Assembly (NCBI GenBank): GCA_031310005.1
Contig: CM062384.1
Coordinates: forward strand, 2,542,001 to 2,606,000
From: Dactylellina haptotyla
Taxonomy: Eukaryota; Ascomycota; Orbiliomycetes; Orbiliales; Orbiliaceae
Direction: 5' to 3'
DNA length: 64,000 nucleotides
This document shows positions 1-62,869 of this stretch, piece by piece. How positions within the stretch are numbered: the first letter of the stretch is position 1; the number at the start of each line of letters is the position of its first letter. The notes under the pieces were generated by a model. The model was not told the origin of the DNA. It did no database searches and saw only the letters and a program-made list of their open reading frames with translations. The translations under genes and the position numbers were made by a program.

Positions 1-490
1 ATTGCCGATTTCTTTTCTATCTGGAGGCACAGATCGTCTGGATATGCCACTAAAAAGTCCGCAGATGTGTTGATTGATTCTCGAGGGTGAGGCCGTTTTC
101 ACTCGCCAGGGAACGCACGTTAATATTGTTGATGTAACAAACTTGTAAAATCTTTCAAGCAAAAATTTAGGCTGCAAATTGAGTATGATGTAGAACCTTG
201 GTGATATGCATGCTTTAGAGTCGATGCCACAGTATATCTCAGGGGGCACCCCATGGCCCATCACGCATTTGATTGTATTGATTTCGCGTGGTTCATGAAT
301 CCACTCATTATTAGGCCTAAAGTTCGCGCAGGTGGTTTCAAATTGCTCAACTACGACAATGTAAAAAAATACCTTCTTTTAGCCCGTACTGTACAAAGCA
401 TGATATACGTATACCTAGTAATATTATTTGAACAAGTAGGTATAAGATCTCTCAATGTTCAACTCCTTGGTGAATATATAATCTTAGAAT
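1..490. other. intergenic, no gene seen
   Basis: No coding frame here shows a domain, signal peptide or acceptable splice structure. A 100-codon plus-strand frame overlaps the 3' end of the next gene and looks like chance. Confidence 0.5.
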
Positions 491-3676: not shown

Positions 3677-6385
3677 CCCTTTTTGGATTATTATGCATTT
3701 TTTAGCTATTTTCAGAGTGGAAATTGGAATGTAGCTAATATATCTCGATATAGAACGTGACGATGAATCTAGCAGAGCGGATGAAGGTTCCTAACTAGCC
3801 GAAACTTGGGAACGGGAGTGGTAGATTTGGACTAGACTTCGGGTGAGTCCAAGGCTGCGACTAGCTGGGGATGCAAGATGAGTTTCAGCTAATTTTCTGC
3901 AAGAATACGGAGTTGGTGATTTCTTACACCCGCTTTTGGATCCATATTGTCTTAAATATTGAAGTTTAAAATAGGATTATACATTCAAGCCTCTGGTGGG
4001 GTGGACTAGGTCGAATATTCTAGAGATCGACCAGCAATATTATATATATAATATCCAACTGGCAACTTATTCTTAGTGTGAATATTTCGAATGAAACCCA
4101 CCCTTTTACTTAGATAGATTAATCTTGCCTGGGAGCGCGATCGGTACAATACCCTATCTTCGGATATGTTATTGATAGGCACAAGACCCCGCGAGACCAT
4201 ACAAGACCAACATCCAATAGCATTCGAACAGTCTCCAACAGAAGAGTTGTGTTGTTTTTTGGTGCTTCCAAACCATACCCAAATTCAAAAAACATAGTGA
4301 GCAGATTTGCTCACACTCGAGGCATATATCGCTTTCCGTGGCACATTGGGCTTGTAAATGCTGAGATCAAATAGCTCTTACTCCCTGAAAGCCGTGCACA
4401 CTGTTATAACAGCTACAGGGTATTTCGCCAAATATTGTCACTCGCGGTCCGGAGACATTGACCGCTGAATGAACTTGCACGAAAGCGACTGCCGTCATGA
4501 AGTCGTACAAGCTTATTTTAGCGATCTAGATTCCCCTGAAAGTTCGAGACCTGGACCCTGATAAAGTTATGCTAGAGTTTCAAAACATTTTCGTTTTCGT
4601 CATGGCTCGGGCCGCGGGCGTATTCTCGCTGATATCATGCGCCAGCCTTATCAATCGATGCGCCGGCTTCATACCACCACCGCAATATTTTGCTGTGGGA
4701 ACCCCAGCTGCAATGGAATTGTCTAGAACTACGAGCAATTTCGAAAAGTACTCAAGTGGAGGTTTACAGCGGTTTTGAAGCCCGAACTTAATTGTTGCAA
4801 ATTCGGCGAATATCCCGGCAGCCGACCTCGTCCTACAGCAACCCACACCTATACCACCTTCAACATACTTTACAATCTACCCTCTCTTCACATCCACGAA
4901 ATGATTGGGATGCATTCAATATCTCAACGACTGATTATGTAATTTGCTATAACCTGAACCCCGCGTTCCGCGCTCGGAACTCCTACTTCCGAGCAAAATT
5001 GTCCACATTTGGGAACCGGGATGCTCAACCAACCAGGTATTTAAAGATATGTTGTTCTCTTTTCCTGATAGAAAAAAGCCACCGGATATTAGCATTAAGA
5101 TATACCGGACCGCGCCGCTAGTCACCCAGGGCCGGCGGTCTGCGGTTAAATTTACAGGGAGCGCTGGCCCCTGGGGATTGTATTATGAGTCTATAGACTC
5201 CCGAGAGACTAAATTAATGAGTATAAAGTAATGGAGAAAGATTCGGGAAGATGATAGACTCAAATGGCTAAGACCAAGATAGTAGACGCTATTTTATTAT
5301 AGGCTTCGAGAAATAGATTCTTTCCAGGTTTTGCCCCCACAAGGGCGGCAAGCTATACCAGTAGCTATTAGATATCCTCAGAAAACAGATTTCCAGAGGA
5401 ACCGTTTGATAGAACTTGGTCGTCAACAGAATCAACTCTTACGCCAAGCTGGCGACCTGGGACTTGAAGTTGAGTACCTGTGGGCTTGTTTGTCTCACCA
5501 GTCAGGTGCTGTCTGGGTTTGTATGCAACACCGATTTGGGGTAGCTGATCAATTTCTAGCCGAGCCCGCAAGATAGAACAAGAAAATTACTGTCCAACCT
5601 TGGATTGAACCTACCGCAGCCACGGATTCTCATTTTGCCTTCTTCTTATACTAGCCCGGATCTAGTGTTTACTGAGCGACGCACCTAAGACTAGTACACC
5701 TTCTAGGTATATGGCCTTGCTATAGTTACGAGACTGACGTTGCCAAACAAGTTTGGTGTCCGCAGGACACCATATAAAGATCTACGACCTTCGCTAAATC
5801 AAAGAAGGTATAAACAGTTACTAATGCCGATTCTTAGACCTACTAAGAAAACGATCGAATGGTTAGTAGAATTTATTTTTTGTATATTGAAAATTGTTAT
5901 AAAATAAAATTATTAATTCTTTTATTACTACTATTGTTATTGTTATTGTTATTGTCTCTTATTTACTCAATTATTTTTCCCCGCCGGATGGTAATAAAGG
6001 GTTTTGTACTATTAGCTAGAGACAATACAAATACATTACATTACAACAAGAGCAGCAGCTCAGCCGAGACAAAGTTCCCTTTGACAGAATTGTCTCGTAT
6101 TATCGTACCCTGCTTTTGTGTTGGACTGGGAACGAGACCAATCGCACCTAATTACAGAGCTAAGGACCTGATTTCCCTCCACATATGCACATCCATCAAC
6201 CGCGTCTTATATTTCCTTTGGCATCTCCTGACCAAGTCGTTCTTTTCTTTCCATCAGCAAAGTCTTCATTGTGATCTTGCATATGGAAGGTCGAATAGTG
6301 AACCGAAGCTTTTGTCTCTAACCTCTATAGCTCTACATCCACACCTCGATCTAGCAAGAAGTTTACCAATGTATCGTGGCCCTTG
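3677..6385. other. gene-poor interval
   Basis: About 2.7 kb without a supportable gene. It contains a TTA/TTG-rich microsatellite at about 5918-5957, which creates a fake poly-leucine frame, and overlapping short frames on both strands at 5331-5576 that match nothing I recognise. Confidence 0.5.
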
Positions 6386-8270
6386 CTAGCGCCATGAGAA
6401 CACGGTTTGGCCATCTTGGTGTTTGGCTTTCAATCTCGCACCGCTGTTGAGGAGACATTTAACTCTACTCACATGCCCTTCTCTAGCAACTAGCATAAGC
6501 GGGGGTATCGTGATATTTATCGCATACCTCCAAATTGCGCCTAACTCCAATAAAGTCTTGACCACTTCCAGGTATCCCTGATATGCCGTCCAAGGAAGTG
6601 CTGCTTCAGCATATACATCTTTGGCCTCGATATTCGCGCGACTGTCAGCTCGAGTCATTACTACCGCAGCGTAACCGTTATAGGCAGCTGTAAAGAGTGT
6701 AGTTAGATGAATTAAGTATTTGGATTCAATATTCGCACCGTTATCTACTAGTAGCTTTACGATCTTTCATATCCTCTCTCTCCAGTCCATATGAGCAAGG
6801 TCTCCCCGTTGACATCCACAGGGTCCAGATCAACCCCACCGTCAATCAGGAGCTTTGCTGCTACTTTGTGCCTCCGGCCTACCGCAGTCCATAGGGGACA
6901 TATGTCAGTGTCTTTCCAATTTTAGCGCCCATATCTGCACCTTTATATATCAACAATCTCATAGCTGCTTCATTACCCATCACGGAAGCGATCCATATTG
7001 AGGTTCTTCCCTCTTCATGTTCAGCTTTTACACGCGCCCCCATATCAACCAGGAAGGCTGATAACGCTGTGCAGCCATAAAACCGCCGCAGAGAAGAGAG
7101 GCGTTCCACCTGATAGGTCCTTATCATTTATATTGGCGCCGTTGTTTGGTAGTATTCGTACCATTTCTTCGTCTTTTTTTTCTATGGACATAAAAATTAA
7201 AACTTTATTTGTATTTACCCTTAGTTTCCAAATATACGCCCTCCTTTATCACTAGTTTTGATACTCCGTAATGTTGCTTCTCTGCCGCTAACCAGCGTAG
7301 GTGTTTTCCATAGTTGTCTCTAGTTTAGCTCAATTGTCCAATATGAGTTTTGCCACACCTTCATGGCCCTGATCCGTTGCTATTGAGAGTAGCATTCGAG
7401 CAACTTTGTCCTTCACCTCCAAGCCCAGGCTAGGCTGTTTATTCGAAAGGTTCTTCGCCTCCGCTTCAAGTCCCCGTCGTACTAACTCAAGAAGAGAGTT
7501 GGAGACTTGTTGAACTTTCTGGTCGGTTTGACTTCGTGGGACCTCCTGAAGATCAGCTAATGCTTTGGATAGCCCCACAAGCTCCCCGTGTCCTTTTTTA
7601 GATGCCACCACTAAAGGGGTTTCATTAAGTTGATTCTTGATATCCAAGTCTACGCCCCTATTTATTAGCACTTCTAGATTTCGCGGTTTCCTTTTTCTGC
7701 CGCCTCTAGGAGTACTCGAGTTGGGCATTTCCTGATTTGTCTCAGGCTTGTAAAATGGCGCCGTGATCAACCAAGAGCTTTGGTCTTGTGATTTTGTCGT
7801 TCCTGATAGCTGTAAAGAAGTGCAGTGAAATCCCAGTAGGTGTCTCTGGCTTCTATATCGGTGCCACCACCTAGCACTAATTTGAAAATGTCTTCTGGAC
7901 TTTCCTCTACAACCTTTATAAGGAAGGTTTGATTCACCCTCCTAGCTCCTAGATCCGCGCTTCCGTCAATGAGGATTTGATTTATACCCTCGAGCGGCGC
8001 TTAGTTTGACCTGGAGTAAAGGGGTTATATTCACGGAGTCAGGATTGACAGTATTCCAAATTGCGGTTTGGTCGTATTCATGTTCAAGTCCGCGCCGGCA
8101 TTCACTAGCAAGCGCACGATCTCTTGGTACCCCATGTGGGCTGCATACGAAAGTATGATTCGCTTTCCATAGGAAATTCTCGTACTGCTTATATATGCGT
8201 CCTTGTCGATTAACAGCTTGACGATATTCGCCAAATTTTGACTAACACATGGGTTACTTGTGAAATCACA
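6386..8270 (-). pseudogene. ankyrin-repeat relic, probable C-terminal half of NLR-like gene
   Basis: On the minus strand, consecutive segments in all three frames read as ankyrin repeats. Examples are EIVRLLVNAGADLN near 8100, ILIDGSADLGAR near 7960, LEVLINRGVDLDIKNQ near 7650, AAMRLLIYKGADMGAK near 6930, KLLIDGGVDLDPVD near 6830, KLLVDNGANIESK near 6740, and LEVVKTLLELGAIW near 6560. At least eight repeat-like units can be followed, separated by frame changes and stops, so no single protein can be made. The order and strand continue the NACHT relic upstream. The simplest reading is one decayed NACHT-ankyrin gene; a second, independent ankyrin gene is the alternative. Confidence 0.75.
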
Positions 8271-8336
8271 TATATGGAGTAGCCAGAGAACAAAAAGTGA
8301 TTTGTCTTCGTATTATTATTATTATCTTCTTTTTCC

Positions 8337-8337
<1 letters not shown>

Positions 8338-8367
<30 letters not shown>

Positions 8368-8373
8368 CTTCTT
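8338..8373. repeat. (CTT)12 microsatellite
   Basis: Twelve perfect CTT units followed shortly by a run of about 13 A residues. It lies just downstream of the coiled-coil gene on the minus strand. Confidence 0.9.
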
Positions 8374-8474
8374 TTAGTTAAAAAAAAAAAAAATGGGGCC
8401 CACCCCTCCCCATTTATGTAAAGGGCCCATCCACCGGCAGTCCCTATACGCCTGGTATATGTGTCTATTTATCT

Positions 8475-8948
8475 CTAGTCTTGCTTGTCTTTTTTGTGTA
8501 GATCACCGATATGCTTATGAAGAAGGGCGAGGTTGTCGATACTGTTGAAACGATTGTCAACACTATTAAAGCGACTTTCCATACTATTGAAGCGATTTTC
8601 CACAGCATTGAAACGATCAGTCAATCGAGTATTCAACCTAGTCTCTAAGCTCTCGATATCCTTGTTGACCTTCCCGATATCATTGTGGATCTTCTCGATA
8701 TCCCTGTGGATCAAGTGGACGCCGAACTAGTGAGATAGGCGGAAGATAAGTGACAGAACTTGTTTCCATTCAAATAACTATTACTTACCGCTGACATACT
8801 GCCAAAGGCCCCCAAATATCCGAGAATCGTGAGTGCAGTTTGATGATTAGCAATTAACTAGTGAGAAGGTTGTTAATTGGTGAAATAGGGTCTACATTCG
8901 CCAGAGCTTACATACCGACGTGGTGGTTTCTGATGCCTTTTCGACCAT
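8475..8948 (-). CDS. small coiled-coil protein with heptad repeats, three exons
   Basis: Three minus-strand exons join in phase: 8948-8916, 8857-8789 and 8726-8475. Introns of 58 nt (GTATGT...CTAG) and 62 nt (GTAAGT...CTAG) separate them, giving 117 residues. Residues 8-40 include a hydrophobic Gly/Ala-rich stretch (LTILGYLGAFGSMSA) that could be a membrane or packing helix. From about residue 42 the protein is a long helix with Ile/Leu spacing (IEKIHNDIGKV...), ending in four near-identical heptads of the form RFNSVEN, which are encoded by a 21-bp minisatellite at about 8536-8625. I do not recognise a named family. The gene is on the same strand as the flanking NLR relic and between its fragments, yet it keeps an intact frame and clean splice sites. 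Start choice is uncertain, as the frame is open a little further upstream. Confidence 0.55.
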
Positions 8949-9300
8949 CCGGCGAATTGCCGTCCCGTGTAAGAAGCGATACTTACCCGACCGTTAGGAA
9001 CATCATACAACAGTAAAAAGTTTGAAGCGATCGATACTTACGTGCATTTTTTTTGCAATTTTTGTATTATAATTAGTTCGATTTCGTATGGTGGAGGGGG
9101 GTCGTTAGAGGATCGTTGCAATGTTCAGTTTGTGATGAAGAAATCTAGAAAGGTCGCACATTCAAAGGTGGAATTTAGTTCTTTCCCAGACATGCCAGCA
9201 ACGTTGCAACATCTCAGACTAAACTCTAAAACCAGCCAACAACACAAACTCAGTTAAGATAGTTAAACCACGGTAAAATATATAACCTAAAAACTATTTT

Positions 9301-9490
9301 TTATATTTTTCTCTCTAGGTCCGCACCGCTACTCGCAAGCATCCCCATGATTGCTTCATTTTCAGCTTCAACCGCCCAAATTATGGGTGCTGTGGATACT
9401 TTCAGGATGTCTAGATCTGCTGGGTTGTCCAAGTCTTCCAAGAGGTACGCCACCAGTCTTGACACCAAAGTAAGCGACAAGGACAAGGTG
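9301..9490 (-). pseudogene. ankyrin-like fragment of the NLR relic
   Basis: A 61-codon frame reads VAYLLEDLDNPADLDI...APIIWAVEAENEAIMGML, then ASSGADLE. This matches the first ankyrin units that follow the helical linker in fungal NACHT-ankyrin proteins. Frames immediately upstream (9490-9790) carry weak remnants of that linker. It lies between the NACHT relic and the ankyrin relic, on the same strand. Confidence 0.55.
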
Positions 9491-9790
9491 CAAGGCGCTT
9501 AAGCTACCGATTGGGAATAAATTTCATCTTCTACCGATAACTCAAGCCCGTGAGAGCCACGCACAAAATACAACTGTGATTTCGATTTTTATAAATTTCA
9601 CAGTAAGCCTGCCATATGTTTCCGAGGATTTCTGAGCGTGGTGGCCCTAATAATTTGCAATGTAATCAGAGAAGGGGTTTCAAGATTTGTGAATGTTGAC
9701 TGACCAGCGAGACCAACTTGATTTAAGCCATTCGTTATCTCCATCTGGTGGCTGTTGAAAATCATTAGAACGTAAATTTGATACATCTTT

Positions 9791-11720
9791 CTACGATGTC
9801 ATCCTGCGCGCCTCGAAACCAAGGATCCTAGCAGTCTTGTACGGATCCCAGGTTCGATCGAAAATTTCCTATGGACCACAACGCACTAGGCGTACGGTTT
9901 TACTCATCTCGTCAACGGCAACAAATCCACCGCATACACTAATCATAAAGTCTTCCCTTGGAATGATTTTGTTTGTTTAGGCCTAAAGGGCGTTTGTATG
10001 GGGTTCTGTTGCGAGCGCATGGTGAAGTTCAGTCGTAGTAAGTTATCTGCTGGCAGAAAATATCCAGGATAATACTTTGAAAGCCTACTCTTGTGAAGCT
10101 GGGCTTTGTCGCTTAATCCTGTCCATATCCTGTCTATATCCTGTCCATATCCTCCGCATAAGCGATGTCAATAAACTTCTTCTATACTAACATTCGAAAC
10201 TTTTTTGGTCTTCCCGAGTGCCTCGAAAACTTCCTTTGAAGAAGCCATACCGGAGAATGAATCCAGACGGCGTTGTGCCAATAGAAATCTTTGTAAATAA
10301 TAATATTATTAGCAGGTAGCTCTCCTTGTTCGCGGAAAACAGGATCTTTATAATATATTCCATCGACGGTCTCAATTAGGTGGTCCATAATGGTCTTCTG
10401 TAGTTTAAGGTCATCTTGGATAATGCCACCTACATATATATTGAAACTGGCTGGGTGTTTTCGCAGGTTGGCTTCAGAAGCACGGGATCTCCATGCAATT
10501 CCGGAAGGGTTCCCTTCACCCATTTGATGATGTTCGTTAAGTATCTCGAAGTTGCAAAGAAGTTGACACTAGCTTTGCGTTCGATTAAAGCTCGATAATA
10601 TGGTTGTGAAATAAAGAACGGCAAGATTGCGTACCGGAAATTTATCAAGTACGTCGACTAAGATGAAAATTCTAGAATGTAACTGACCAACGGAAAATAT
10701 AGCATCTGGTGTCTCTCTCAAACTGGTCGCGTGTTCTGTTTTTTATGCCTATCATACATTCTTACTATATTCTTAGGTAAAAAAGGCAACGTTTGAAGCA
10801 GCTGCCTCAGGAGGCTTGCGAGTAGATGATCTAGGTCTTGCTGGCTATGTCGTTTGAAGTTGCAATAAATGTTTGCTATTTCAACGCTTTTATCGCCCTG
10901 GTACAGTTTTTCAACTGGTTACGAGACTGGTAGTAAACTACATTTGCTGTCGTGATATTTTTTCCTGGCTCCTGGGATGCAAGGGCAATATAAAACCTGG
11001 TTGTTGGTTGTAAGCCGTGTTCGAACATAGACGAATCTAGAAACCACTGGTCAGTGCCGGAGTGGCGCAGTCTGATATAGTTGCCTTGTTGAGAGCCATA
11101 ATACGTTAACAGACAGTTGAGGATTTCGAAGTCATACTTCCTGTCCAATTTGATATGGACCTTCTCAATCTTTTCTTCGATACTATTCGAGTTCACTATT
11201 TAGATGCATATTTTAGTCGTGTGCGGCTTTGAAGGTGTATTTAATGAAGGGGCCGGACACTTATTCATAACATCTTTAGCTGAGGTCTCTTCTTCAACGT
11301 CACTAAGTTGAATGTACGACAGCAGCTCTTTCGCAAAGGCAGCCGCGGCAATTTATTATGGGCTGGCGTTATAATTGTGCGAATCGGCATAAATGTAGAT
11401 ATCTCTGACGATAAGGCAAAGAGAATCGTTTCACGAGACTAGTAGCTTCCGTTTCAACGCATAAGACTTTACCACCGAGCCTTTGGCTAAGATTGTCTCG
11501 AATGATAGCGTCGTTGATGGTCTTATTCCTAGAATTCCTAAGGCAATGAGGCCATAGTGAATCCGCATATCCCTCTTTAAGGACTTGCGTTTTACTGCTT
11601 TTGTCTTATCGCAGAACTTGCACGCCCTGGTCTCCTCTTCGCCCTCTTCGCCCTCTGGTGCTTCATCATCTTCATCTTCTTCACTATCGTCGTATATGCA
11701 TCTGGTGGCGCTTTATTGAC
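9791..11720 (-). pseudogene. PNP-NACHT NLR-like STAND protein relic
   Basis: Reading the minus strand across all frames gives, in order, the landmarks of a fungal NLR. A nucleoside-phosphorylase-type N-terminal domain comes first: IHYGLIALG near 11555, VLCVETEA near 11460, YIYADSHNY near 11400, AAAFAKELLSYIQ near 11330. The pre-NACHT linker follows (SGTDQWFLDSSMF near 11060). Next are a P-loop reduced to PGKNITTA near 10965, YCNFKRH then LLASLLRQLLQ (10880-10800), a Walker-B-like IFILVDVLDK near 10665, FATSRY near 10570, YAEDMDRI near 10155, and the winged-helix part LTTTELHHALA near 10025 with VCGGFVAVDE near 9930. Frame changes and stops separate nearly every landmark. Intact relatives sense ligands and trigger regulated cell death or incompatibility; this copy cannot. 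Confidence 0.85.
10116..10148. repeat. 11-bp tandem repeat, 3 copies
   Basis: The unit ATCCTGTCCAT occurs three times in a row, the middle copy with one C-to-T change. It sits inside the NACHT relic just after the YAEDMDRI landmark, so the extra units disturb the frame. Confidence 0.85.
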
Positions 11721-12625
11721 GTGAGTATATTCCGATTTAAATTACATTATCGAGTCAATCGGACTTCAGAAACTTTACAGCTAGTCTTGGAAAATTGTTT
11801 TTAATTTGATCCGGGGACGTATCGGTATACGCAATCGAGTATCTTGGAACCATCCAACGTGGTCAACGCAGCTCGTATTTATATATCTACATACCACTAT
11901 GGCTTAAAATTACGTGGAAAACTGATTCTGGGCACATGTTTCGCGGCCATGTTATTCCCAACTGCTATTTAGCATCTAATGATTTCGATTGACTCTTGTG
12001 CCTTATGCATTATGAATACAATAAGTAGAAGCCGGGTGGGGTTATATGGCCCGTCACCTAAAATATAGAAGAAACCAAAAATACAAACCATCCCATACTA
12101 CGCCCAGCGGTATACCCTGGAGTTCTTGTGGCATTGCGACCCACCTCTAACGTTCACGAATTGAGCCGCTTCTCCAATTTCATGCAATGAATGGTGCTGG
12201 AAAGAGATTAGAAGGCCAAGAAAGGATCCCAGTCTCGGGACCAGCAATGCTCGGTTTGGTCCAAGATTGAAACTGGCGCTCTGTAGCTCCAGACGAACTA
12301 TAAGGGAAACAATACCGCTCAGACAAAAACCCAGGAAAATACAGAACTGAGCAAATACATGGGTGGCTATGTTATAGTTTCTTTCCATTGTACGGTATCG
12401 CAAACCGGAACTCGAGTTGGTTCGTATGTTGGATGTGGTGGTTGGCCATAATAACGCTGCAGTGTTTCACACCAACAAAGCGAGAGACAACAGACACCAA
12501 AAGACTGACTCACGACTATATGACTCGCTAGTGATGCCACGATACCTGTTCTACGAGAAAGCAAGAATAACAGAAAACAAATGGTAGTAAAAAGTTGGAT
12601 GCTAAAATGGAAAGCAAAAAGAAAT
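11721..12625. other. intergenic, no gene seen
   Basis: It lies upstream of the NLR relic. The N-terminal third of the phosphorylase-like domain is not recognisable here. One minus-strand frame (12098-12403) has a single hydrophobic segment but no support. Confidence 0.45.
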
Positions 12626-12706
12626 CGACACCTGTGAGATTCGAACTCACGCACCCGAAGGTACCAGCTTAGCAGGCTGGCGCGTTAACCACTCCGCCAA
12701 AGTGCC
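12626..12706 (-). tRNA. tRNA-Ser (GCT)
   Basis: Read on the minus strand, this forms a full class II cloverleaf. The seven-pair acceptor stem (GGCACTT with AGGTGTC) contains two G-U pairs. The anticodon stem CCAGC/GCTGG encloses the loop CTGCTAA with anticodon GCT (bases 12673-12671), reading AGC/AGU serine codons. A variable arm follows, then a T arm with stem GTGAG/CTCAC and loop TTCGAAT. The base at 12626 is the discriminator (G). No intron is seen and CCA is not encoded, as expected for a eukaryotic nuclear tRNA. Confidence 0.95.
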
Positions 12707-20509: not shown

Positions 20510-21957
20510 ATGCATTTCAGTACTCTAATCCTGCCAGCTGTGCTTCTATCTGAGCTGTAAGTATTTGCGAGTTGAATAATATACCAAAAGTACCCCGCTA
20601 ACACTTCTTCAGAGCATACGGTGCGGTCCTCGATACTCGCCACAACAAGAAAAAGCCCAAGGAGGGTTTTAAATGCGAAGGTTTGGAAGAGGGCTATAAA
20701 TGCCACACGGACATCAGCCGCTCCTGGGGCCCATACACCCCTTACTACTCCCTCCCGTCGAACTACAAGCCCGCAAACATTGACGGCGAGTGCGAGGCCA
20801 CCTTCGCCCAGGTCCTCTCCCGCCATGCAGCTCGCTACCCGACAAAGGGCATGGGAAAGAAAATGAAAAACGTGATCGAAAAGATCCAGAAGAACGCAAA
20901 GTCCTACTCTGATAAAACCAGGTTTATCAAAACGTTCAAGTATGAGCTGGAACCCAAATACGACCAACTAACGGACTTTGGCCGCCGCGAGATGTACAAC
21001 TCCGGTATCAAGTTCTTCAACCGCTACAAGAAACTGAACGAAAACGACGAGCCGTACTACCGAGTATCCGGCCAACAGCGGGTCATCGAATCCGGCACCG
21101 AATTCTCGCGCGGCTTCGTTGATGAAAAGGCAAAGTCCAAAAAGCAAAAGACAGTCTCCTTGCCTCATTTGAACGTCATCCAGGAAGGTAAGTCGTTCAA
21201 GAACACCCTCGATCACGGTACCTGCCGCGAATTCGAGGTCGGGCGCTACTCCAAATCCCACCAGGAGGCGCTGGATAAGTACATCGCCGTATTCACCCCG
21301 CCCATCGTCCAGCGACTGGGTAAGGAGATCCCCGGCGGTGATATCAACGGCCTCGATGTAGTCCACCTCATGGGTCTCTGCCCTTTCTACACCGTCATCG
21401 ACGGTGACAAACTCTCGGAGTGGTGCGGTCTCTTCACACCAGAGGAATTCAAACAGTTCAATTACTACCAGACGCTTGCGAAGTACTATAAATACGGAGA
21501 CGGTAATCCGCTCGGTGCAGTTCAAGGCGTCGGTTTCGTTAACGAGCTTATCGGTCGTCTTACCCGTTCCGCAGTGAAGGACTCTACTTCCACAAACTCC
21601 ACTGTCATCGGACCAATCGATAGAAAAATATACGCTGATTTTTCTCATGATAATACAATGGTATCCATCATGACGGCCATGAAGCTCTTCGATGGTCTTC
21701 CGAAGCTCGATATGAAAAAGATGGAGTCTACCGATCGGTTCAATCTGGCTGATATCGTTCCGTTCGCGAGTAGAGTGTACATTGAGAAGATGAAGTGCAA
21801 GAGTGAGCCCGATGAGTTGGTTAGAGTGCTAGTCAACGATAGAGTTATGAAGTTGAAGTGTCCGGAGAAGAAATACGGTTCTTGCACCGTGCATGAGTTT
21901 GTGCGCGGGTTGAAGTTCGCTAGGAGGGGGGGTAATTGGGATCAGTGTAACGCTTAA
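20510..21957 (+). CDS. secreted histidine acid phosphatase / phytase-like
   Basis: A 47-nt first exon (20510-20556) encodes the signal peptide. After a 56-nt intron (GTAAGT...CAG) the second exon (20613-21957) completes 463 residues. The catalytic motif SRHAARYP (His 87) corresponds to the RHGxRxP signature that forms the phosphohistidine, here with Ala for Gly. SHDNTM (His 361, Asp 362) is the C-terminal proton-donor motif. About ten cysteines, spaced as in fungal phytases, suggest multiple disulfides. The basic stretch RHNKKK after the signal could be a propeptide site. Such enzymes release phosphate from phosphate esters or phytate outside the cell. Substrate preference cannot be read from sequence. 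The CACGTG box upstream would suit phosphate-responsive control, as inference only. Confidence 0.92.
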
Positions 21958-27921: not shown

Positions 27922-30148
27922 ATGCCTAATACACACGTCAACAAATGCGACGAATGTAGAAAGGCGAAAAAGAAGGTTGGTAAGTTCTTTGATCTCGACG
28001 GATTTGAAGAAACTAACAATCAGCTTTATTAGTGTGAGATTGACTCTCTTACGGCGACTAGGTGTCTTCGCTGTATGGCGATGAACAAATCCTGTTTTTG
28101 GTTTCCTCATCAAGAAGCTACCCCCGTTCCGAAGCTGCACAAGACACTTAAGGCCGCACCCGCTCGCGGCGCCATGGATATGTAAGGATGCTTTCCAAAT
28201 TTTGATATCAAGTCTGGTATTGATGAGAGTACATAGACTAGCTGATATCGATTGCCTGCTTTTTCTTCAGGCTGGTCTCGAAGAAGCGATCCTTCGTTTT
28301 GAAAATATCTTTTCTAGCATTGGCGAGGTACCTTCATCGTTGACAGAAGTTGCCAATGTGAACCGGGAAAACTTGGGCTATATGAAAGAAGCCGCAGCCT
28401 GGGCGAATCGTTTATTGAGGGCTGCCCAGGAGCGGCGACTCTGGAACTTACCAATAGATATAATATATTCCAAGAGCTTGGGCAATCTTCGTACATCGAG
28501 GCCGTCAGCACCCTTCTACAGACTCGGGAACAGTATTTGTCCGAAAAGATTCTGCAACTACCCGCCCAGCAGAGCACTAAACCGGGTCCCAAATATTCAG
28601 ATCTCAATCCGTGCAGAAAGTTGATCTTCAAGCGGTTAAAAACTTTGGCAACTTTATCCAGATCAGTCCATCCCAAATCCCCCACAGAGCGAGATCCCGA
28701 TCCCGAAACTGCATTTTATTACGAGGGCCTGCACGAGTATCTTGCTGCACACGACATTCTCCAAGATGTCATCTCAAGATATGGACTAGCCATGAATAAA
28801 TTCTTCATAACAAAGGACGCACAACTTGGGGGCATCCTTCGAACTCATCGTTACTTCGAACGAATAACCCCCTTAATGGAGATTGTGGCTTTTAAAAAAA
28901 GACCCCGCAGTTATCTCGCAGTTTCACGGGCTACCAACCGGGAGTAGTATCTTGGGACTGACAGACCTTTTCGGAAACAGCTTCCACCATATGGTAGCCA
29001 AATATGGAATACAGTTAGATTCTATAAGTGGTACTCATAGTCAGTACGCAGAAGATCTTACAAATTGGAAAGACATATACGGACTAAGACCTCTTCATGT
29101 TGCTATCATGAATCATCATAATCACCTGATAGAACGATATTTTAGTGTGAGTCTTGATGGCGGAGCAGCGAATCCGTATGATGCGCTTATTTCCGTCTGG
29201 CCGTTTTTCGACCGGTTCCAAAATGGCTTGAATATTCTAATCGATCACTCTCGGCAATGCTTCCTCTGGAGGGTTAATCCTTTGATGTTGGCTATACTCT
29301 GCGGCAATGAAGTGGCGGCGAAGTATTTTCTTTCCACTCCTTTCGCATTTAACTATTTTCGTGGGTGCACTCAACCTGCTCGGTATGTCGACGCCCACAA
29401 AGGCCGTGGTGGGGAAGATTGCTCATTGACATTCCAACTCACGAAACTTGCCCCGGCCCATATAGCGCTTCTTACTGCGCAGTACCAGTTACTCATATAT
29501 TTCATGCAAAACCCCGGGGCCGGTTCACAACTAGATATGGACGACGTAAATTGCTTATTTTGGATGGCGCTCACTTGCCGTGATAAAGAAGCTATGAGTT
29601 ATTTTGTTCGTCTGAACCTCCCCGAAAGAACCGTTAGGAAACAAATTAAAATCCTACAGAGTTGTAACCTTCCAGAACTTTTGAGAGCTTACTTCTCCAG
29701 AAGTTGGTTCATAAATGAGCAAGATTATCTACAATGGTGTTTTAGCCTGCGAAATCAGAAGGACAAGTTTGGGAGTAAATATCTTCTGTTTCCAAATGAG
29801 CCAGAACCATCATACTCAACTGAACTAAAACTAGAGGACCTCATGGATCTAGAACAAACCCGAAACTATACTTCGTACACAACACCAGAGGAAAAATCTC
29901 TGGAAGTTCTCTTGATCCGTGGCCTTGACTTTTGTCCGACGGCGGATGAAATACGCCTTGCCACCTCGGATGAGCCGTCACAACAACCAATTCTTAGTGG
30001 CCCTAAATCAATTCTATCGAAGACATCGAAGACATCAAAAACATCCTCCTCTCTGATTACAATCATTGGCGATGGTGGTCTCGAAATCCTTTTCACGAAG
30101 AGAAAACCCAAAATCACAGATCACAAGCTCTTGGACCTAGAGCATTGA
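27922..30148 (+). CDS. Zn2Cys6 DNA-binding / ankyrin-like protein, frame broken twice
   Basis: Exon 1 (27922-27975) and exon 2 (28033-28181) form a Zn(II)2Cys6 cluster, CDECRKAKKKC then CLRCMAMNKSC, across a 57-nt intron with a weak GTTGGT donor. Exon 3 starts at 28237 after a 55-nt intron. The helical middle part (GLEEAILRFENIF...) loses frame near 28430, where one base appears missing, and continues one frame over (LTNRYNIFQELGQSSYIEAV). At the A7 tract 28894-28900 one base appears extra, after which the frame is open to 30148. That last part has degenerate ankyrin-like units (YGLRPLHVAIMNHHNHLIERYF, NPLMLAILCGNEVAAKYFL, APAHIALLTAQYQLLIYFM). A DNA-binding role is known for Zn2Cys6 domains; target unknown. 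Either sequence errors or recent pseudogenisation. Confidence 0.65.
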
Positions 30149-39660: not shown

Positions 39661-40424
39661 AATGAAAGGGGTTTTAATGTTGTTAATGTTTGATTTCAGG
39701 TTTCAACCTTAAGCTTAGGTTTTACAAGGTCGAGCTCTAGATCTTAATGTTTGTTGGATGCCAAGAGCTGCCTTTGTAATAGAATTTACACTCAAGAATT
39801 CTACTTTACGGTCAAAATCAGAATGATGTATACCATTTTAATGTTGCCAGAGGTTTGAAGTCTTAAGCATCTTCAAAGATATCGATATTATCATGACGAT
39901 GCATGCATTCGTGTATTAAGTCGCCATCGTCTGATGCCAAACCTACATGGTAAAACCTGACGATAATTATGTAGGTATTTACATGGCTGCTGTTGCTGTT
40001 GGCGTTGGATTGTTGGCAAAATCTCATTTTGAGCGAGACCGAAAGCATTGCGAGGGATTTGATCTAATATTGGTACCATAAGGGCGCGTAAAATGGCAAA
40101 TGGAATTAAGTTACTCAGGGACGGGGTAGTCTTAACGATGCAGAACGCATGAAGATAGTGTCTTTCTAGATAAAGAGTAAATATACAGATTTATCGCAAT
40201 CAAGCATAGAGAATTTTTCGTTGAAGTGACAGAGGTGGCAAAACCACTACTATATTATAATATTAGGCATATGAAGATATCAGGTACATCGCTTTATCCA
40301 TATCCTCAATTAATCCCGAGGTACCTTCTCCTATTCTGAGGTGAATTCTCTTCTCAATATCTCTTATATATGCACAAACAAAATCTTAATCTAACATCCC
40401 AGGGGAAAAAGTATAGGTACAATT
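39661..40424. other. intergenic, no gene seen
   Basis: About 760 bp, AT-rich. A TATATAT box near 40363 is about 60 bp before the next ATG. Confidence 0.5.
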
Positions 40425-42509
40425 ATGAAGAAAGTATTCTTAAAATGCCGATTAATTTCTCTATGGTTTCTTTTGTATTTAGGTTATTCGCTGGCTGTAT
40501 ACGTGCCAAAGCTTAAACCAGGAGAGATAAATGTCAAAACCGGCACTGTCCACCAATTCGCGGAAATACATTGGTTTGTCCTCAAACCACGCTATCGCTT
40601 CAATAAAGACTATATCAAGAAACTATTGCAATGGGCGGAAAGTGTAACTCTACCCCCAAGAAAGTTAAATTGCTACCCACATAGGAGCCGCTATTTGGGT
40701 TTCGTAAGCATGTCGCTTGAGGTTCCGCCGGCCGCGAACTTGAAGGCTATACCCAAGGATTGTCTCTCTGGGATCGAGTTTCACAACATAATATTTTCGG
40801 ACTTGTATCAGGTATCGGAGCGTAAACAGTCATTTTTTGCAACTTGGCTCAAAGACTCAGATGATGGAGACCACTCAAACGAAGAGATGGACATGGAATC
40901 AGACTGGTCTGACTATTCGGACATGGATATTGAGTCGGATCCAGTTGGTCCCGTAAAGCGGCAAGTAAAAACTGAAGAGCGAAAGGGGGGGACAAGAAGA
41001 AGAGGGCAAGATTTTGGGACCAAATCGATCTTACATCCATTATCTAAGAGACGAAATCGTTCTATTGGATATAGTAATTCGACAATTATAGCTTCTAGAG
41101 CGAAAAGGGCACAGAAACGCGAGGTAGAAGCAATTTCAATTGGAGGGCATGCTTTTGACCTCCAAGTTCTGTCTCAGCCTCCAGGCGTGCCTCATCAGGG
41201 CCTTTTTGGAAAGTTTTGGAATTTCAAAAAGCCCGGAAAAAACACAGTAATTTATGTAATTGATACAGGTTACGATCTACAACACCCGGTAAGGTAGGCG
41301 ATATTGGTGTTCTTTATATCCAGAAAGGCGTTTACATTTACAGCTTGCCACAATACGAAAGTAGCTAATACGTTAGTGAGATCTACATTCCTTTTTTCAG
41401 GAGCTTGGAGGTACAGATGTTCAGGAATGGCTAGACCCGGAGGTATTCCCTTGGGACGAAGACAACGACATGCAGGACCAATATACACACGGTGATCTTC
41501 ATGGGACTGCAGTTTTAAGTAAGCTTGCGGGTAAAACTGTGGGTGTTTCTAAGGATGCAAAGTTTGTGCTAGCGCGGTTTTGCGATGGGCGTGGCAGACC
41601 TGGGATAGATAACACAATGGATATGATCGTAAAAGTCTTTGATCATATAAAAACTCATAATTCCCGATCCAATTGTGTGATCAACTTTTCATTGACATGG
41701 AATGCGGACGGCAGCACCAGCCAAGAGTACGCAGACCACCTCCATTCATACTCTCGAGAACTTTTTCGGGCCCTAGCGAGTTTACCAAATGTGATAATGG
41801 TTGCATCAGCGGGAAACGATCCCTCGAGCGAGGTATGTACGGTCTTAGGTGCTCTTAATAACTTATAAATTCAATAGATCTGATAAATTCAATAGAATAC
41901 ACCAGTCGTGGAAAGATACCCTGCTATTTTCACGCGAACCAGAAATATAGCCCGGAAATTGATATTAGCTGGGGGATATGACCCTTACACCGGGCAGGAG
42001 TTTCATAAAACATTACCCGTAACGAAGGTTTGGGCTCCATCAAGGCTCAACAGTTGCGCTTGTCTATACAAAGATGGTGTCCTTCAGGCTGAAAGTGAAG
42101 CTGATGTGTGGGATTCCATGCCATTCGCTATTAAAAATGAGTTATGCTACATGTCAGGGACATCTTTTGGTGAGTGGCAGTAGACCAAAGCTTCACCTAA
42201 TCGGAATTGACGGATCACAATAATTTCTTAAGCTAACCTATATCCATCTGACTTCCTCGGATACCTGAACTGAAATTTTCAGCCGTACCTCTTGTTTCTG
42301 GATTCCTCGCGAATTGGCTTTCCAATGGTATGACCATTAATAGTGTAGTAGACTATATGTATAAACTAGCGTATACTCGCGTTAAAGATGGTCCACCAGT
42401 CCTCTTTAGTGGGATAGGACTCGAGAGTTGGCCGCGGAATCGACAACCAGATTGGTTTAAACAAGGCCAAGAACCACCCCCGCCCCCAGATAGTCTCCCT
42501 GGTCTTTAA
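40425..42509 (+). CDS. secreted subtilisin-like serine protease (S8), paralogue A
   Basis: Four exons, 40425-41288, 41401-41832, 41896-42169 and 42283-42509, with introns of 112, 63 and 113 nt, give 598 residues. A signal-peptide-like N-terminus (1-24) is followed by a long unusual pro-region (about 25-260). That region has an HQFAEIHWFVLKPRY block, an acidic Asp/Glu-rich segment and basic KR/RR sites where processing could occur. The catalytic domain keeps the triad: Asp280 in VIDTGYD, His322 in DLHGTAV, the oxyanion Asn427 in ASAGND, and Ser522 in GTSFAVP. The C-terminus ends in a Pro-rich tail. Activity is therefore likely. The domain is shorter than proteinase-K types and is split by introns at the same four places as paralogue B, so the two are tandem-type duplicates separated by other genes. 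Confidence 0.88.
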
Positions 42510-47183: not shown

Positions 47184-48129
47184 TATCTGGCTTTCTTATT
47201 CACCATATTCTATAAATTAAAACGATTCTGTTCCATTGTGGATTTAGTTGATACTTTACATAGATACGAGAACTCCTTGTTTTGATGTTTCGTATTACTT
47301 ACACGGCCGTCGGATCGAGCCGGCTCTACGAATGAGTTAGAAGAACCCCCCTACAAGCTTTTAGACGGGATGTATCACTAGAGGCAGAATATATTACCAT
47401 AAATTTGTGAGCGATACTATACTCTTGTTTTAACACTATGAAATATATTGCTAGGCCAGGAGACACGAGTTCATGTTCAAAGCTTCCAAAGTTTGGTGCA
47501 TGCTTCATCTTAAGATATGTGAGGCCTGCCCTAGACTAAAATATTTGTCAGATACTAGCACGGATCTCATTTATCAGGTTGCGAAATCACCACTTTAAAG
47601 GTTTCTGCCAGCTTCTAAAGAAATAATTTAAGACGTGTTCCGGCTTTATATATTTCATGTGATGAAAGCTTAAGTCTTCAGCAGAATACCCGTCAATTAT
47701 TAGGGAGTGTCTTTCATGCGGGAGTGTCTTTCGTGCGGATAATGCATCGATCGTACACTCGATAAATTTAGTATTTCCAACAATAATCTGAGACAACTTT
47801 TTGTTTGTGGCACCACCGACACGCTGGGCGCTATTTTTGTATTAAGAAATATGAATATTGCAGAAAATCTCGTGCAATCTACCACAACTGTTGGCGTGGT
47901 AGAGCTACGCCACTTAAAATCCGATTGAAAAATTCTTAAATGCACGGGAATATCTGACGACTTCGATATATAATATAAGCCCCGGAGAGAAACATTATTG
48001 TGTTCTCCGCCAAATCATTAGAAAACAGAACAAAGCTATCTGAGCAGTGCGCCATTCTGTTCGCCATTTCTCTGTTAATTTGATATATTGTGGTCGCGAG
48101 CTCTTCACATTAGAAACACTAGTACTACC
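47184..48129. other. intergenic between acyltransferase and subtilase B
   Basis: Holds the second copy of the 52-bp repeat (47260-47311), a 17-bp tandem duplication (gggagtgtctttcatgc / gggagtgtctttcgtgc) at about 47702-47736, and a TATATAA box at 47967-47973, 157 bp before subtilase B. Confidence 0.55.
47260..47311. repeat. 52-bp dispersed repeat, copy 2
   Basis: Diverged copy of 42594-42645 (43 of 52 identical). Seven of nine differences are C-to-T or G-to-A in this copy. Confidence 0.7.
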
Positions 48130-50139
48130 ATGAAATCAACTTTTCTCTCTAATCGATTTGTATTAGTCTCTATGGTTCTGCACCTAATCTCGCGATGTTC
48201 ACTCGCCGCTTTTTTACCCGCCGCCAACATGAAGATTGGTAGCGCACATCAATTTTCAGAGCTAGTCTGGTTTATCCTCAGACCACAATACCGTCATAAC
48301 GAGAATTTCATCGACAAACTTTTAACATGGGCGGAACATGTCGCCTTACCGCCCAAGAAATTAAACTTTTACGTAGTCCGAAGTCCTTATATAGGTTTTG
48401 TAAGCATTTCAATTGAAATGGAAAGAGAGAAGGATTTCTCTGAGATGATTAAAGAACTTGATGAAGGTATACGGGCGTATAGCCTTGTTCTATCGGATGA
48501 GAAATCAACGTTCGAAGCACCTTGGCTCGAAGAATCGGACGAGGAACGGTTAAAAAAAATTCGACGGCCAAATAAAAGACAGTATACAGAAGCAGAGGGA
48601 GGATTAGATCAGAAAAATGCCTCAGCTTCATCACCCTCAATAAACAGAACGAAAAAATCTTCTTTTATCCACACTAATTCATCGATATCCACTTTGCGCA
48701 CGAAGCGGTACGTAGCTAACAAGGTCGCTCAAGGAACCAAACTCGCAGCAAGCTATTACGATTTAAAGGCCTTATCGCAGCCACCAGGTGTAAGAATTTC
48801 AGATTTGGCTGGGAGGTTCTGGAATTTTAAAAACCCTGGGCAAAATACCGTAATTTATATATTAGATACTGGCTATGACTTGCAACATCCAGTAAGTTAT
48901 CTAGATACACACAGGAGTTGCTGGTAGAAATTCTCCAACGATCGCGATTTAAATCCTATTCAGTTAATCTTGCTGACAAGAGACTAAGTTTTATGCGCCA
49001 TCCCCAATCCTGATTGCCTAGTCACCGCTAACATACGTAATTGGAATCCTTCGCTCTCCTAGGAATTGGAAAATATACAAGTTCAAGATTGGTTGGATCC
49101 ATACGTATTTCCTTGGGACGAACAGAACGATATTAACCGCCTGTACCCATATCACGGCATGCACGGAACCAGTGTTCTAAGTAAATGCGCCGGGAGAACT
49201 GTCGGTGTTTCCCAGACTGCGACTTATGTCCTCGTTCGGTACATCGATGGGCGCGTTCGGGGTAATTACGATACCTTTGCGGACGCTCTGGTGCAGATAT
49301 ACGATCACATACGATCACGGAACTCTGATAAAAAATGTGTGCTCAATATTGCGGCTCGCTTCCCGGTCTATAGAGGAACAGTAAAAACTCAATTTGAAGC
49401 TCAACGTCGACTACATATGGAAGATATATTTATCAAACTCGCAAGCTTACCAAATTTAATCATAGTTACAGGAACTGGTAATGCTTTCATGGTAAGTAGG
49501 GTTGTTCAAGACAGATAAAAATTTTCTAGCTTAATAGTTCAAAATCGAATCGGTAACCTATTCAAAACATTTAGCATGAACGGAACTCAGAATCATATCC
49601 CTCGGTTTTTGCAGATCACTTTTTCATTGGACAAAAAATGGTCGTCGTCGCGGGATATCATCCGTGGACTGGCCAAGAGATCTTTCCGGGAGTCAAGGAG
49701 ACGAAAGTTTGGGCTCCTGCAGCCCGAGTTAGCAGCGCATGCTGGTATCTGAACGGTTTGCCCACAGAAAATAAATACAAAGTCGCGCTGACTGACTTCG
49801 ATAAAAAACGTCAAATTTGCTCTAAGGAAGGCATCTCCTACGGTAACTATCGAAGATGCCCTTTTTGAGAATCTTTGCCCAATTTGTTTCTTATTTGCGC
49901 TGGACGACCCTCTTTGTTAACGGAAAGTCTTAACTTTAGGCATACCGCTCGTGTCTGGGCTCCTTGCGAACTGGCTCTCTTTTGGGATCGATATTGATCT
50001 AGTGATAAACTACATGTACAGGCTCGCGTATCCCCGCGCAGAGAACGGTCCGGCGGTTCTTTATAACGGAATTAAGATCCAAGACTGGCCAAGAGAATTC
50101 TGGCCAAACTGGTATAAGAAAAATGCAAATCGCATTTGA
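48130..50139 (+). CDS. secreted subtilisin-like serine protease (S8), paralogue B
   Basis: Four exons, 48130-48891, 49063-49491, 49575-49842 and 49940-50139, give 552 residues. Intron positions match those of paralogue A. A signal peptide (about 1-30) and a pro-region with HQFSELVWFILRPQY open the protein. The acidic segment of A is shorter and a basic Ser-rich linker is present. Catalytic residues: Asp246 (ILDTGYD), His288 (GMHGTSV), Asn394 (GTGNAF) and Ser485 in EGISYGIP. The serine block departs from the standard GTSxAxP in two places (Thr to Ile, Ala to Gly), and the Asn block reads TGTGN rather than SAGN. The Ser itself is present, so activity is possible but may be altered. It lacks the Pro-rich tail of A. 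TATA at 47967. Confidence 0.86.
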
Positions 50140-60640: not shown

Positions 60641-62464
60641 TTACAGGACTGCAAACGGCGGCGGACTATCTCTATCCACCTCTAAAAACGACATCTCCGC
60701 CTCACTCGCTCTCAAATGCTCATAACTCCCCGCCAACGACCCGTGAAAGCTCGCACTGCTCCCCGTCATCGTGATATCGCTCTCCTCACTCAACCGCCTC
60801 ATCGGCTGCTTCCCCTTCCACTTCCCCTTCGCCGCAGTCTCGACTACAGTCTCAGCCCCTTCTTTCTTCTCAAACATACTCTCAGCCTCTTCCAGCTCCT
60901 CATCCTCTCCATCCTCCAAATATTCCTTGACAAAATCATTCAAAAACACACCCTCGCCGTCCACCCGCCGCCTAACCTCCAACCACTTCTCTAGCTCTTG
61001 GCCATAAATAGACCGGAAATCCCGTCGGGTCATGGTACTCCAGTTCTTCGCCCAATGTGGTTTCCCGCCATACTCCTTCATCAACCACTCGAAAACCTCG
61101 TACAGCTTCTCACGGCCGGGGATATCCTTTCCATACGGCCGAAATGTCGTAGCATTGATGTATAAACTGGGCACGTCCTTTTGATGCGTATCCAAGTACG
61201 GCCTGAGCTCTGCGCTTCTGTTCCCCTGTGCGGGGAACGAAGGACGTACTTCTATCGGACTGTGCGCGTATACTTTACTCGTGGTGTTGTCGAATGGTAT
61301 TTTATGAATATCGTAGGACTTGCCATTAAGCCACGATTGTAGTCTATGCAGGAACTCCGGTCCCTGGTGGAGTGGGATACTCCATTCGTTGACGTATTGG
61401 CGGTAGAGACAGTTCATGGACATGCCCTCGACGGAGGTTGAGACGCCGGTGGTGATACCGTCCGGGGAGGAGTGTAGCTGCCGGCCGTACTGCATGTAGA
61501 ACATTGCTTTCTCGGCGAGCGGGGTAAGAGAGGGGATGTAGACGGTAGCGAAGAGCATGATTTGGTTGAGATGGTAGCCGATGGTTGTGTCGAACCATTT
61601 GGCGGGTGCGGGAGTAGGTGGGAGATCGGTGGGGGTGGCGCTCCAGTGCAGCGCTTTGCCGGTGTACGGGTACCACCATACCCGTTCGTACTCTGCTACG
61701 CCGAATATTCGAGAGTTCCAATGTGTGATGATTTCTGTGTGGGGGCGTAGGGATTGCGTCCAAGCTAGGTTGAAGGACTTTTGCGCCTTGAATGTGACCG
61801 AGGTGATGATACCAAGAGCTCCGAGTGATATCAAGGCCGCGCGGAAGAGGGATAAACCGTCCTCCTCGTCGAAGAGTTTCGGCTCTGTCGTGCCATCTCG
61901 AAAGCATTTGATATGGTCACCGTTCGATAGGAGGATGGTAAGGGCGGTGATATCATCGGATATAAGGCCGTGGTGTAGCGAGCTGCCGTGCGATGCCGTG
62001 CTGATTGCACCAGATATACTCTGCTCTGATATCGTCCCCAGGTTTGGCATCGCCCAACCCAAGCCCTCGAGTACTCTGTGTATCTGGTACAGCCGTATTC
62101 CAGCCTGCACGGTGATCTCATTCGAGTCCTCGTTGACCTTAAGAACGTCTTGGAAGTCGTCTAGAGATACCATCCATCCAGGCGTACATGTCAGTGCATT
62201 CGGGGAGTGAGACGACCCTACGACGGTGACCTTCTTCTGGCATTTTCCGGCAAGTTTGATGATGAACTGCAATTCTTCGAGGGACTGCGGCCGGAGGAAG
62301 AGCTGCGGTCTGGATGAGTGGATGTGCGCCCAGTTGCGGTGGAAGTGATTCAACGAGGCGCGGAAAGGTATATGCGTCGTAGATACCGGGTCGTATGAGA
62401 GTTCCGCAATATCGTCGGTGGTGTGCGGTACCCAGCGCGAGTGGGCGTTCGGGTTGAACACCAT
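60641..62464 (-). CDS. ALO1: D-arabinono-1,4-lactone oxidase
   Basis: Single exon, 607 residues, ATG start. Residues about 48-220 are the FAD-binding PCMH domain, with VGSSHSPN (His86 is the expected site of covalent FAD) and ISGAISTASHGSS. The ALO domain follows and includes VAEYERVWWYPYT and the conserved HWAKNW (470-475). The enzyme oxidises D-arabinono-1,4-lactone to D-erythroascorbate using oxygen, the last step of the fungal ascorbate-analogue pathway, on mitochondrial membranes in yeast. Compared with yeast enzymes of about 526 residues, this protein has an extra C-terminal tail of about 80 residues, acidic then Ser-rich (EDGEDEELEEAESM...), which looks disordered. No membrane helix is evident. 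Two CACGTG boxes lie about 310 and 370 bp upstream. Confidence 0.95.
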   Translation of the reverse strand: MVFNPNAHSRWVPHTTDDIAELSYDPVSTTHIPFRASLNHFHRNWAHIHSSRPQLFLRPQSLEELQFIIKLAGKCQKKVTVVGSSHSPNALTCTPGWMVSLDDFQDVLKVNEDSNEITVQAGIRLYQIHRVLEGLGWAMPNLGTISEQSISGAISTASHGSSLHHGLISDDITALTILLSNGDHIKCFRDGTTEPKLFDEEDGLSLFRAALISLGALGIITSVTFKAQKSFNLAWTQSLRPHTEIITHWNSRIFGVAEYERVWWYPYTGKALHWSATPTDLPPTPAPAKWFDTTIGYHLNQIMLFATVYIPSLTPLAEKAMFYMQYGRQLHSSPDGITTGVSTSVEGMSMNCLYRQYVNEWSIPLHQGPEFLHRLQSWLNGKSYDIHKIPFDNTTSKVYAHSPIEVRPSFPAQGNRSAELRPYLDTHQKDVPSLYINATTFRPYGKDIPGREKLYEVFEWLMKEYGGKPHWAKNWSTMTRRDFRSIYGQELEKWLEVRRRVDGEGVFLNDFVKEYLEDGEDEELEEAESMFEKKEGAETVVETAAKGKWKGKQPMRRLSEESDITMTGSSASFHGSLAGSYEHLRASEAEMSFLEVDRDSPPPFAVL

Positions 62465-62770
62465 CGGTTTTAACGTAGCCGGGGCTTGAAGCCGCGATCC
62501 TGTTAGGAGGGGTAAGATTTGTATGAGTAAGGTGCCTCTACAGTCGAGTAAGGGAGGAAGTCGGGGGAGGAAGCTATCTGCCTTCAGCCGGGCGTTCCAT
62601 CGAAGCGGGGTGGCATATTATAAAGCTATCGTCGAAGCGGAAAGAAGAAGAAGGAGAGGCGAAGGCGAAAGATCATTTGGCGCGGTCATGACGAAACCGA
62701 CCCGGAAAGGTGTTGCGCCGTCGTCGGTGCCCCACGCCGACCACGCTGATCACAACACCTCGCTGCTTTC

Positions 62771-62776
62771 CACGTG
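62771..62776. promoter_or_regulatory. E-box upstream of ALO1
   Basis: CACGTG, 307 bp before the ALO1 start. A bHLH-type site by motif only. Confidence 0.3.
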
Positions 62777-62831
62777 GTGCCTTCCCGGCCACCGGACAAC
62801 GCTATCGGGGAAGTGTTGTCTGTAGATAGAG

Positions 62832-62837
62832 CACGTG
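62832..62837. promoter_or_regulatory. second E-box upstream of ALO1
   Basis: CACGTG followed directly by ACGTG, so it overlaps a TGACGTG core that could also bind bZIP factors. 368 bp before the ALO1 start. Confidence 0.3.
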
Positions 62838-62869
62838 ACGTGTGGCTAGGTATTTAGTCATAAAGATAT

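Follow-up and report, generated by a model that had tools for sequence, protein, structure and literature searches.

Between positions 6213 and 11811, the minus strand of a 64-kb stretch of the Dactylellina haptotyla genome carries one collinear, frame-broken gene, in which a nucleoside-phosphorylase-like (PNP) domain, a NACHT domain, a winged helix and an array of ankyrin repeats follow one another. The stretch, called the window throughout, comprises 64,000 nucleotides (positions 2,542,001 to 2,606,000 of contig CM062384.1) from strain YMF1.03409 of this nematode-trapping fungus. The remnant is almost certainly a pseudogene of a fungal NOD-like receptor (NLR) of the PNP-NACHT-ankyrin type, a member of the signal-transducing ATPases with numerous domains (STAND), that decayed in place. 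In the intact proteins of this family the NACHT domain would bind ATP and the ankyrin repeats would sense the ligand. Intact PNP-NACHT-ankyrin proteins would then oligomerise and switch on their N-terminal nucleoside-phosphorylase-like effector. By analogy with its family, the intact form of the remnant gene may have served in self/non-self recognition.

The gene was traced through alignments with its relatives. Twelve exon open reading frames (ORFs) from four open-frame PNP-NACHT-ankyrin paralogues of the same genome (L049, L050, L042, and L041) were searched by tblastn against the whole window with a cut-off of E ≤ 0.01. All 85 high-scoring segment pairs mapped to the 6–12 kb interval of the minus strand, along which matches to the PNP, pre-NACHT/NACHT, winged-helix/linker and ankyrin parts succeed one another. 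With L049 as query, a frame-tolerant alignment of 1065 codons (40% identity) reached a score of 1146, where 10 shuffles gave 38–50 and the plus strand 43; it spans 11811-6334, and the alignment of H072_10610, a protein of the sister strain CBS 200.50, spans 11390-6213, also on the minus strand. The parts of the gene are as follows.

6213..11811, minus strand: decayed PNP-NACHT-winged-helix-ankyrin gene, full span from the frame-tolerant alignments to L049 and H072_10610, interrupted at about 9312-8250.
11221..11811, minus strand: C-terminal half of the PNP_UDP (nucleoside-phosphorylase-like) domain, matching L049 residues 188-373 at 47% identity over 171 codons, with 4 frame changes and 1 stop.
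10318..11220, minus strand: pre-NACHT and NACHT part, 40% identical to L049 exon 2 over 281 codons, with 7 frame changes; recovered by tblastn and by NPHP3_N.
9557..10293, minus strand: winged-helix/linker part, 43% identical to L049 over 221 codons, with 3 frame changes and 4 stops.
9313..9556, minus strand: start of the ankyrin array, from the alignment to L049.
6213..8249, minus strand: frame-broken rest of the ankyrin array, from Pfam and from 59–67% identity to H072_10610.

A preliminary description of this DNA, made from its letters alone, had proposed a decayed PNP-NACHT-ankyrin NLR-like gene at 6386..11720. The proposal is upheld by the collinear match, which frame-tolerant search recovered on the minus strand only, and by the best named relative, a NACHT-ankyrin protein of the sister strain. 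Locus and strand stand as described, and the limits move outward, with homology reaching from about 11811 to 6213. The nucleoside-phosphorylase-like domain is present in its C-terminal half and its N-terminal half was not found; the ankyrin array is likewise present, apart from about 1.05 kb (~9312-8250) that belongs to another small gene.

Pfam was run on 10 separate pieces of the remnant at E ≤ 1. The NACHT-like family NPHP3_N matched one piece (1.5e-7) and ankyrin families matched five (Ank_2, the best, at 5.6e-11; Ank at 1e-7). None of the 10 pieces matched PF01048 (PNP) or PF05729 (NACHT), and genome-wide the 38 matches to PF01048 and the 49 to PF05729 all lie outside the window, so that the domain names rest on the paralogues and not on Pfam alone. 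A NACHT-type domain in the middle, ankyrin repeats at the C-terminal end, and the order PNP-NACHT-winged helix-ankyrin on a single strand were all found. The closest open-frame paralogue compared, L049 (G000:C3:4000500-4008300; 40–44% identity), shares the three-exon layout and the domain order with the remnant; unlike it, L049 has three long open exons, in which the PNP domain, the P-loop and Walker B are complete by eye.

The spacing of motifs at the two exon junctions points to a gene that probably kept both of its introns. At the first junction, 132 bases separate the flanking motifs, against 131–196 in the paralogues (where slightly different motifs were used), and at the second, 68 intron-like bases lie between the last NACHT and the first winged-helix motifs, against 49–74 in the four paralogues. 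Since the spacing is intron-sized at both junctions, the remnant is probably not a processed (retro) copy.

Homology to the PNP exon starts at L049 residue 188, and a strict frame-tolerant search of the upstream DNA (11.65–14.65 kb) with all four paralogues did not find the first ~187 residues of this exon. The N-terminal piece of L049 scored 52, where the highest of 40 shuffles reached 45, solely through its last residues at 11811-11758, and the N-terminal pieces of the other three paralogues were equalled by 19, 3, and 4 of 40 shuffles. Under a laxer method, since dropped, the L049 piece scored 90.5 against 29.1–77.8 in 30 shuffles, and a faint further trace of the N-terminal half may lie upstream. 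The truncation could possibly be ancestral, because NLR N-termini built from the C-terminal part of the PNP fold are reported from dozens of Pezizomycotina (PMC9815663). At its gathering threshold, Rfam matched a single feature, a tRNA at 12626-12706 on the minus strand.

The reading frame is broken far beyond what the open-frame paralogues show. Compared with L049 over 1065 codons, the window copy has 14 frameshifts, 7 long gaps of a length not divisible by three and 5 stops; by the identical method, 12 comparisons between open-frame paralogues gave 0–1 frameshifts, 1–3 such gaps and 0–1 stops, introns being counted among the long gaps in both sets. Compared with H072_10610, the copy has 19 frameshifts, 6 long gaps of this kind and 9 stops. 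The open reading frame of a working NLR is absent from the remnant. The laxer alignment mentioned above was dropped and its counts were discarded, as it gave 2–27 frameshifts in the same 12 open-frame comparisons. Judged by eye against L049 and H072_10610, both Walker motifs (A and B) are degenerate: the P-loop is altered and frame-broken, and LVDVLDK takes the place of the Walker B sequence LMDALDE of L049. An initial single-frame reading of the P-loop turned out to be an artefact of the chosen frame and was set aside. Because the N-terminal half of the PNP domain was not found, the Walker motifs are degenerate, frame changes are many and some of the ankyrin repeats have been replaced, the product of the remnant would very probably be unable to work as a receptor.

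A better-preserved counterpart is found in strain CBS 200.50. Read through once, with X at the breaks, and used as a protein query, the remnant gave at E ≤ 0.001 at least 61 protein matches (among the matches listed, 7999 candidates having been scored), the best of those listed being H072_10610 (1260 amino acids; E 1.8e-264). In return, H072_10610 scored 2742 against the window in frame-tolerant alignment (10 shuffles 35–55, plus strand 45), with 62.5% identity over 1204 codons. A phytase ORF of the window (20602-21957, plus strand) is 98% identical to H072_10614 of the same strain; H072_10610 and H072_10614 each lie on a contig of 242387 bases, and the interval between remnant and phytase contains two clear genes and one doubtful gene, which fits the three intervening locus tags. 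The two copies thus very likely occupy the same locus, as judged from these matches. H072_10610 resembles the remnant in its order from pre-NACHT to ankyrin and in its apparent location, and differs from it in having ankyrin residues where the remnant has a foreign segment and in a gene model without an annotated PNP domain. The ankyrin array of H072_10610 is open and its P-loop intact, but its model is incomplete in the PNP domain and the middle of the NACHT domain.

Divergence at this locus looks exceptional beside the phytase and a single control gene, one control being few. The control, H072_1186, is of the same gene type, and its ortholog in YMF1.03409 is 93–96% identical in three pieces (among the matches listed, 39 of 354 candidates). 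The best other open-frame matches to H072_10610 in YMF1.03409 reach 48–55% and the pieces in the window 50–56%, with no closer copy seen elsewhere in the genome (both among the matches listed, 37 of 228 candidates). As an aside on the control gene, the middle match of its ortholog, at G000:C2:1777281-1778129 on the plus strand, contains one TGA and one TAA, which could be intron ends or the mark of a further damaged receptor.

A relative-rate test over H072_10610 residues 46-470 (380–395 sites, seven outgroup proteins taken singly) assigned 41–57 private changes to the window lineage and 12–14 to the CBS lineage, all three sequences differing at 54–66 further sites. In 54 columns all seven outgroups share one residue, which one or both of the two strains retain; both strains keep 37 of these, 16 are changed in the window copy only and one in the CBS copy only. 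The simplest reading of these sequences is that constraint was lost on the window lineage, and the pre-NACHT, linker and first ankyrin parts suggest that the CBS 200.50 counterpart stayed under constraint longer. Identity to L049 at the three codon positions is 0.545/0.652/0.345, against 0.55–0.57/0.66–0.68/0.31–0.34 among open-frame paralogues, in a test blunted by the choice of both sets of alignments through protein similarity. Since these values lie near those of the open-frame paralogues, most of the distance to the paralogues seems to predate the decay.

If balancing selection had maintained deeply divergent alleles at a locus for allorecognition and the allele in the window had broken at a later time, 62.5% identity at this locus beside the far higher values of the control NLR and the phytase would also result. 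This scenario is unlikely, as the excess in the relative-rate test lies mostly on the window lineage, and lost constraint explains it without old alleles (one strain each being compared).

Several observations weigh against the decay, in this strain, of a receptor preserved at the same locus in the other. The codon-position test shows no long neutral drift. Synteny is drawn from the matching contig size, the order of locus tags and a rough gene count rather than from CBS 200.50 DNA. The model of H072_10610 starts out of frame in the end of the PNP domain and skips the middle of the NACHT domain; strain CBS 200.50 was sequenced by 454 (PMC10580851), and its copy may be damaged too, or may carry 454 errors. 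Finally, CA/TA and TG/TA are slightly lowered in the remnant (0.83 and 0.90, where 12001-62000 has 1.07 and 1.05), which would fit mild repeat-induced point mutation (RIP) and is not a strong signature of it.

Inactivation of a duplicated copy by RIP, as in two NACHT-WD pseudogenes of Podospora, would agree with this slight drop, and RIP-inactivated NACHT genes are on record (PMC1805685). It is nevertheless very unlikely here: the composite RIP index is not raised (-0.26 in 6386-11720 against -0.32 in the whole window), frameshifts exceed stops, and a second DNA copy of the remnant was not found in the genome of today. The receptor gene decayed in place, chiefly through point changes and small indels, and shows no strong signature of RIP; it kept its intron-sized spacing, and its decay probably followed most of the divergence from the paralogues. 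Elsewhere in the window, positions 62001-64000 (GC 34%) have a RIP composite of 0.21, the sole positive value among 32 blocks of 2 kb, and may represent a RIP-affected repeat.

The ankyrin array is interrupted by a foreign segment that contains a small gene. When H072_10610 is forced through this segment, identity falls to 27%, against 59–78% in the surrounding regions; the periodicity of the ankyrin repeats makes the borders inexact. Neither a target-site duplication nor a convincing terminal inverted repeat was seen at these borders, where shared AT-rich stretches reach at most 6 bases and there is one 7-base inverted match. The features of the segment are listed below; L040 is the small gene's only relative found in the genome.

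8250..9312, minus strand: foreign segment in the ankyrin array, with approximate borders, in the place of about 104 residues of H072_10610 (469-572).
9042-9047, minus strand: possible first exon of the small gene, 6 bases, by eye.
8789..8857, minus strand: putative preceding exon of 23 amino acids, hydrophobic and membrane-helix-like, with GT-AG borders, all by eye.
8475..8726, minus strand: last exon of the small gene, open over 83 amino acids, with heptad-like RFNxVENRFNSxE repeats that are coiled-coil-like by eye; structure deduced via L040.
8388..8457, minus strand: 70-base element directly 3′ of the stop, 89% identical to the equivalent place in L040 (L040:1501-1570, plus strand) and present in two genomic copies.

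The relative, at C3:3819919, has a similar splice layout by eye, and the DNA of the whole segment aligns with it at a score of 278.5, against at most 86.5 in 100 shuffles. The 70-base element is conserved between the two copies though their coding parts hardly align; its predicted folding is nothing unusual (z 0.33 and 0.43). One terminal pair of the element differs compensatorily between the copies, by eye, and the element is followed directly, at 8358-8392 on the minus strand, by a poly-T tract and then an AAG microsatellite. Searches with the last exons of both copies found neither the other copy nor any further match in the genome (E ≤ 0.001, and also E ≤ 1), and the last exon of the small gene drew one candidate from the protein database and none at E ≤ 0.01. 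A pattern search for the splice region gave 3 matches, as did its reversed control, and missed the window's own copy; it was ill-made and is uninformative. The L040 relative lies about 1.7 kb downstream of L042:601-4712, a PNP-NACHT-ankyrin gene on the same strand. Both copies (2/2) are thus located in or near PNP-NACHT-ankyrin genes, a suggestive pattern, but one of a tiny number noticed post hoc, in a genome with at least 14 PNP-NACHT pairs by eye. It is doubtful that this fast-changing gene forms a unit linked to NLRs, be it as their partner or as a segment, mobile or gene-converted, that moves together with the receptors and has here taken the place of about three ankyrin repeats.

The position of the small gene between two ankyrin parts, with its relative downstream of another NLR, could also be read as two separate genes, namely a 5′ NLR fragment reaching to about 9.3 kb and, beyond the small gene, an ankyrin gene unrelated to it that starts at 8.25 kb, all the more as ankyrin periodicity could make unrelated arrays appear continuous. 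There is very little room for this, since H072_10610 is one protein across both parts and its identity beyond the gap is 59–67%, against 29–37% for its stretches to L049 exon 3. Assembly or base-calling indel errors that make a living NLR look broken are a next to negligible explanation, for the Nanopore assembly (11 contigs) is reported to have been polished with ~123x Illumina reads (PMC10580851), which should place well where the sole other genomic DNA match is 70 bases long, 12 comparisons among four paralogues from this assembly gave 0–1 frameshifts, and in-frame stops and changes in 16 of the 54 otherwise-kept columns are not indel errors.

PNP_UDP is reported to be one of the most frequent domains at the N-terminus of fungal NLRs, and these receptors have been proposed to evolve by birth and death (PMC4986451). 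The PNP_UDP-NACHT-ankyrin NLRs of that source share the architecture class of the remnant and are predicted proteins, unlike the broken gene described here. Decayed fungal NACHT genes are also already in print: NWDp1, NWDp2, and NWDp3 of Podospora anserina are, like the remnant, broken NACHT-type genes beside living family members, and differ from it in carrying WD40 instead of ankyrin repeats and in the nature of their damage, two being attributed to RIP and the third being split by an inversion and without a start codon (PMC1805685). With the architecture class and NACHT pseudogenes known, and no published report of this locus among the literature matches listed, the remnant is an additional instance of an established phenomenon. 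The two-strain contrast and the small gene add a modest extra. The contrast offers a clean case of birth-and-death evolution in which lost constraint can be read against a better-preserved counterpart and a control receptor. At such a locus a gene finder yields scattered short ORFs only, and here a small unnamed gene occupies the former site of part of the sensing repeats.

Two other regions of the window, both on the plus strand, carry features of note. Positions 40395-41868 and 48079-49518 contain two similar ORF pairs, perhaps duplicates, which share an 'NTVIYxxDTGYDLQHPV' stretch that we take to be subtilase-like. At 28085-30148, ORFs with the ankyrin-like stretch 'GLRPLHVAIMNHHNHLIERYF' possibly belong to another repeat protein gene.

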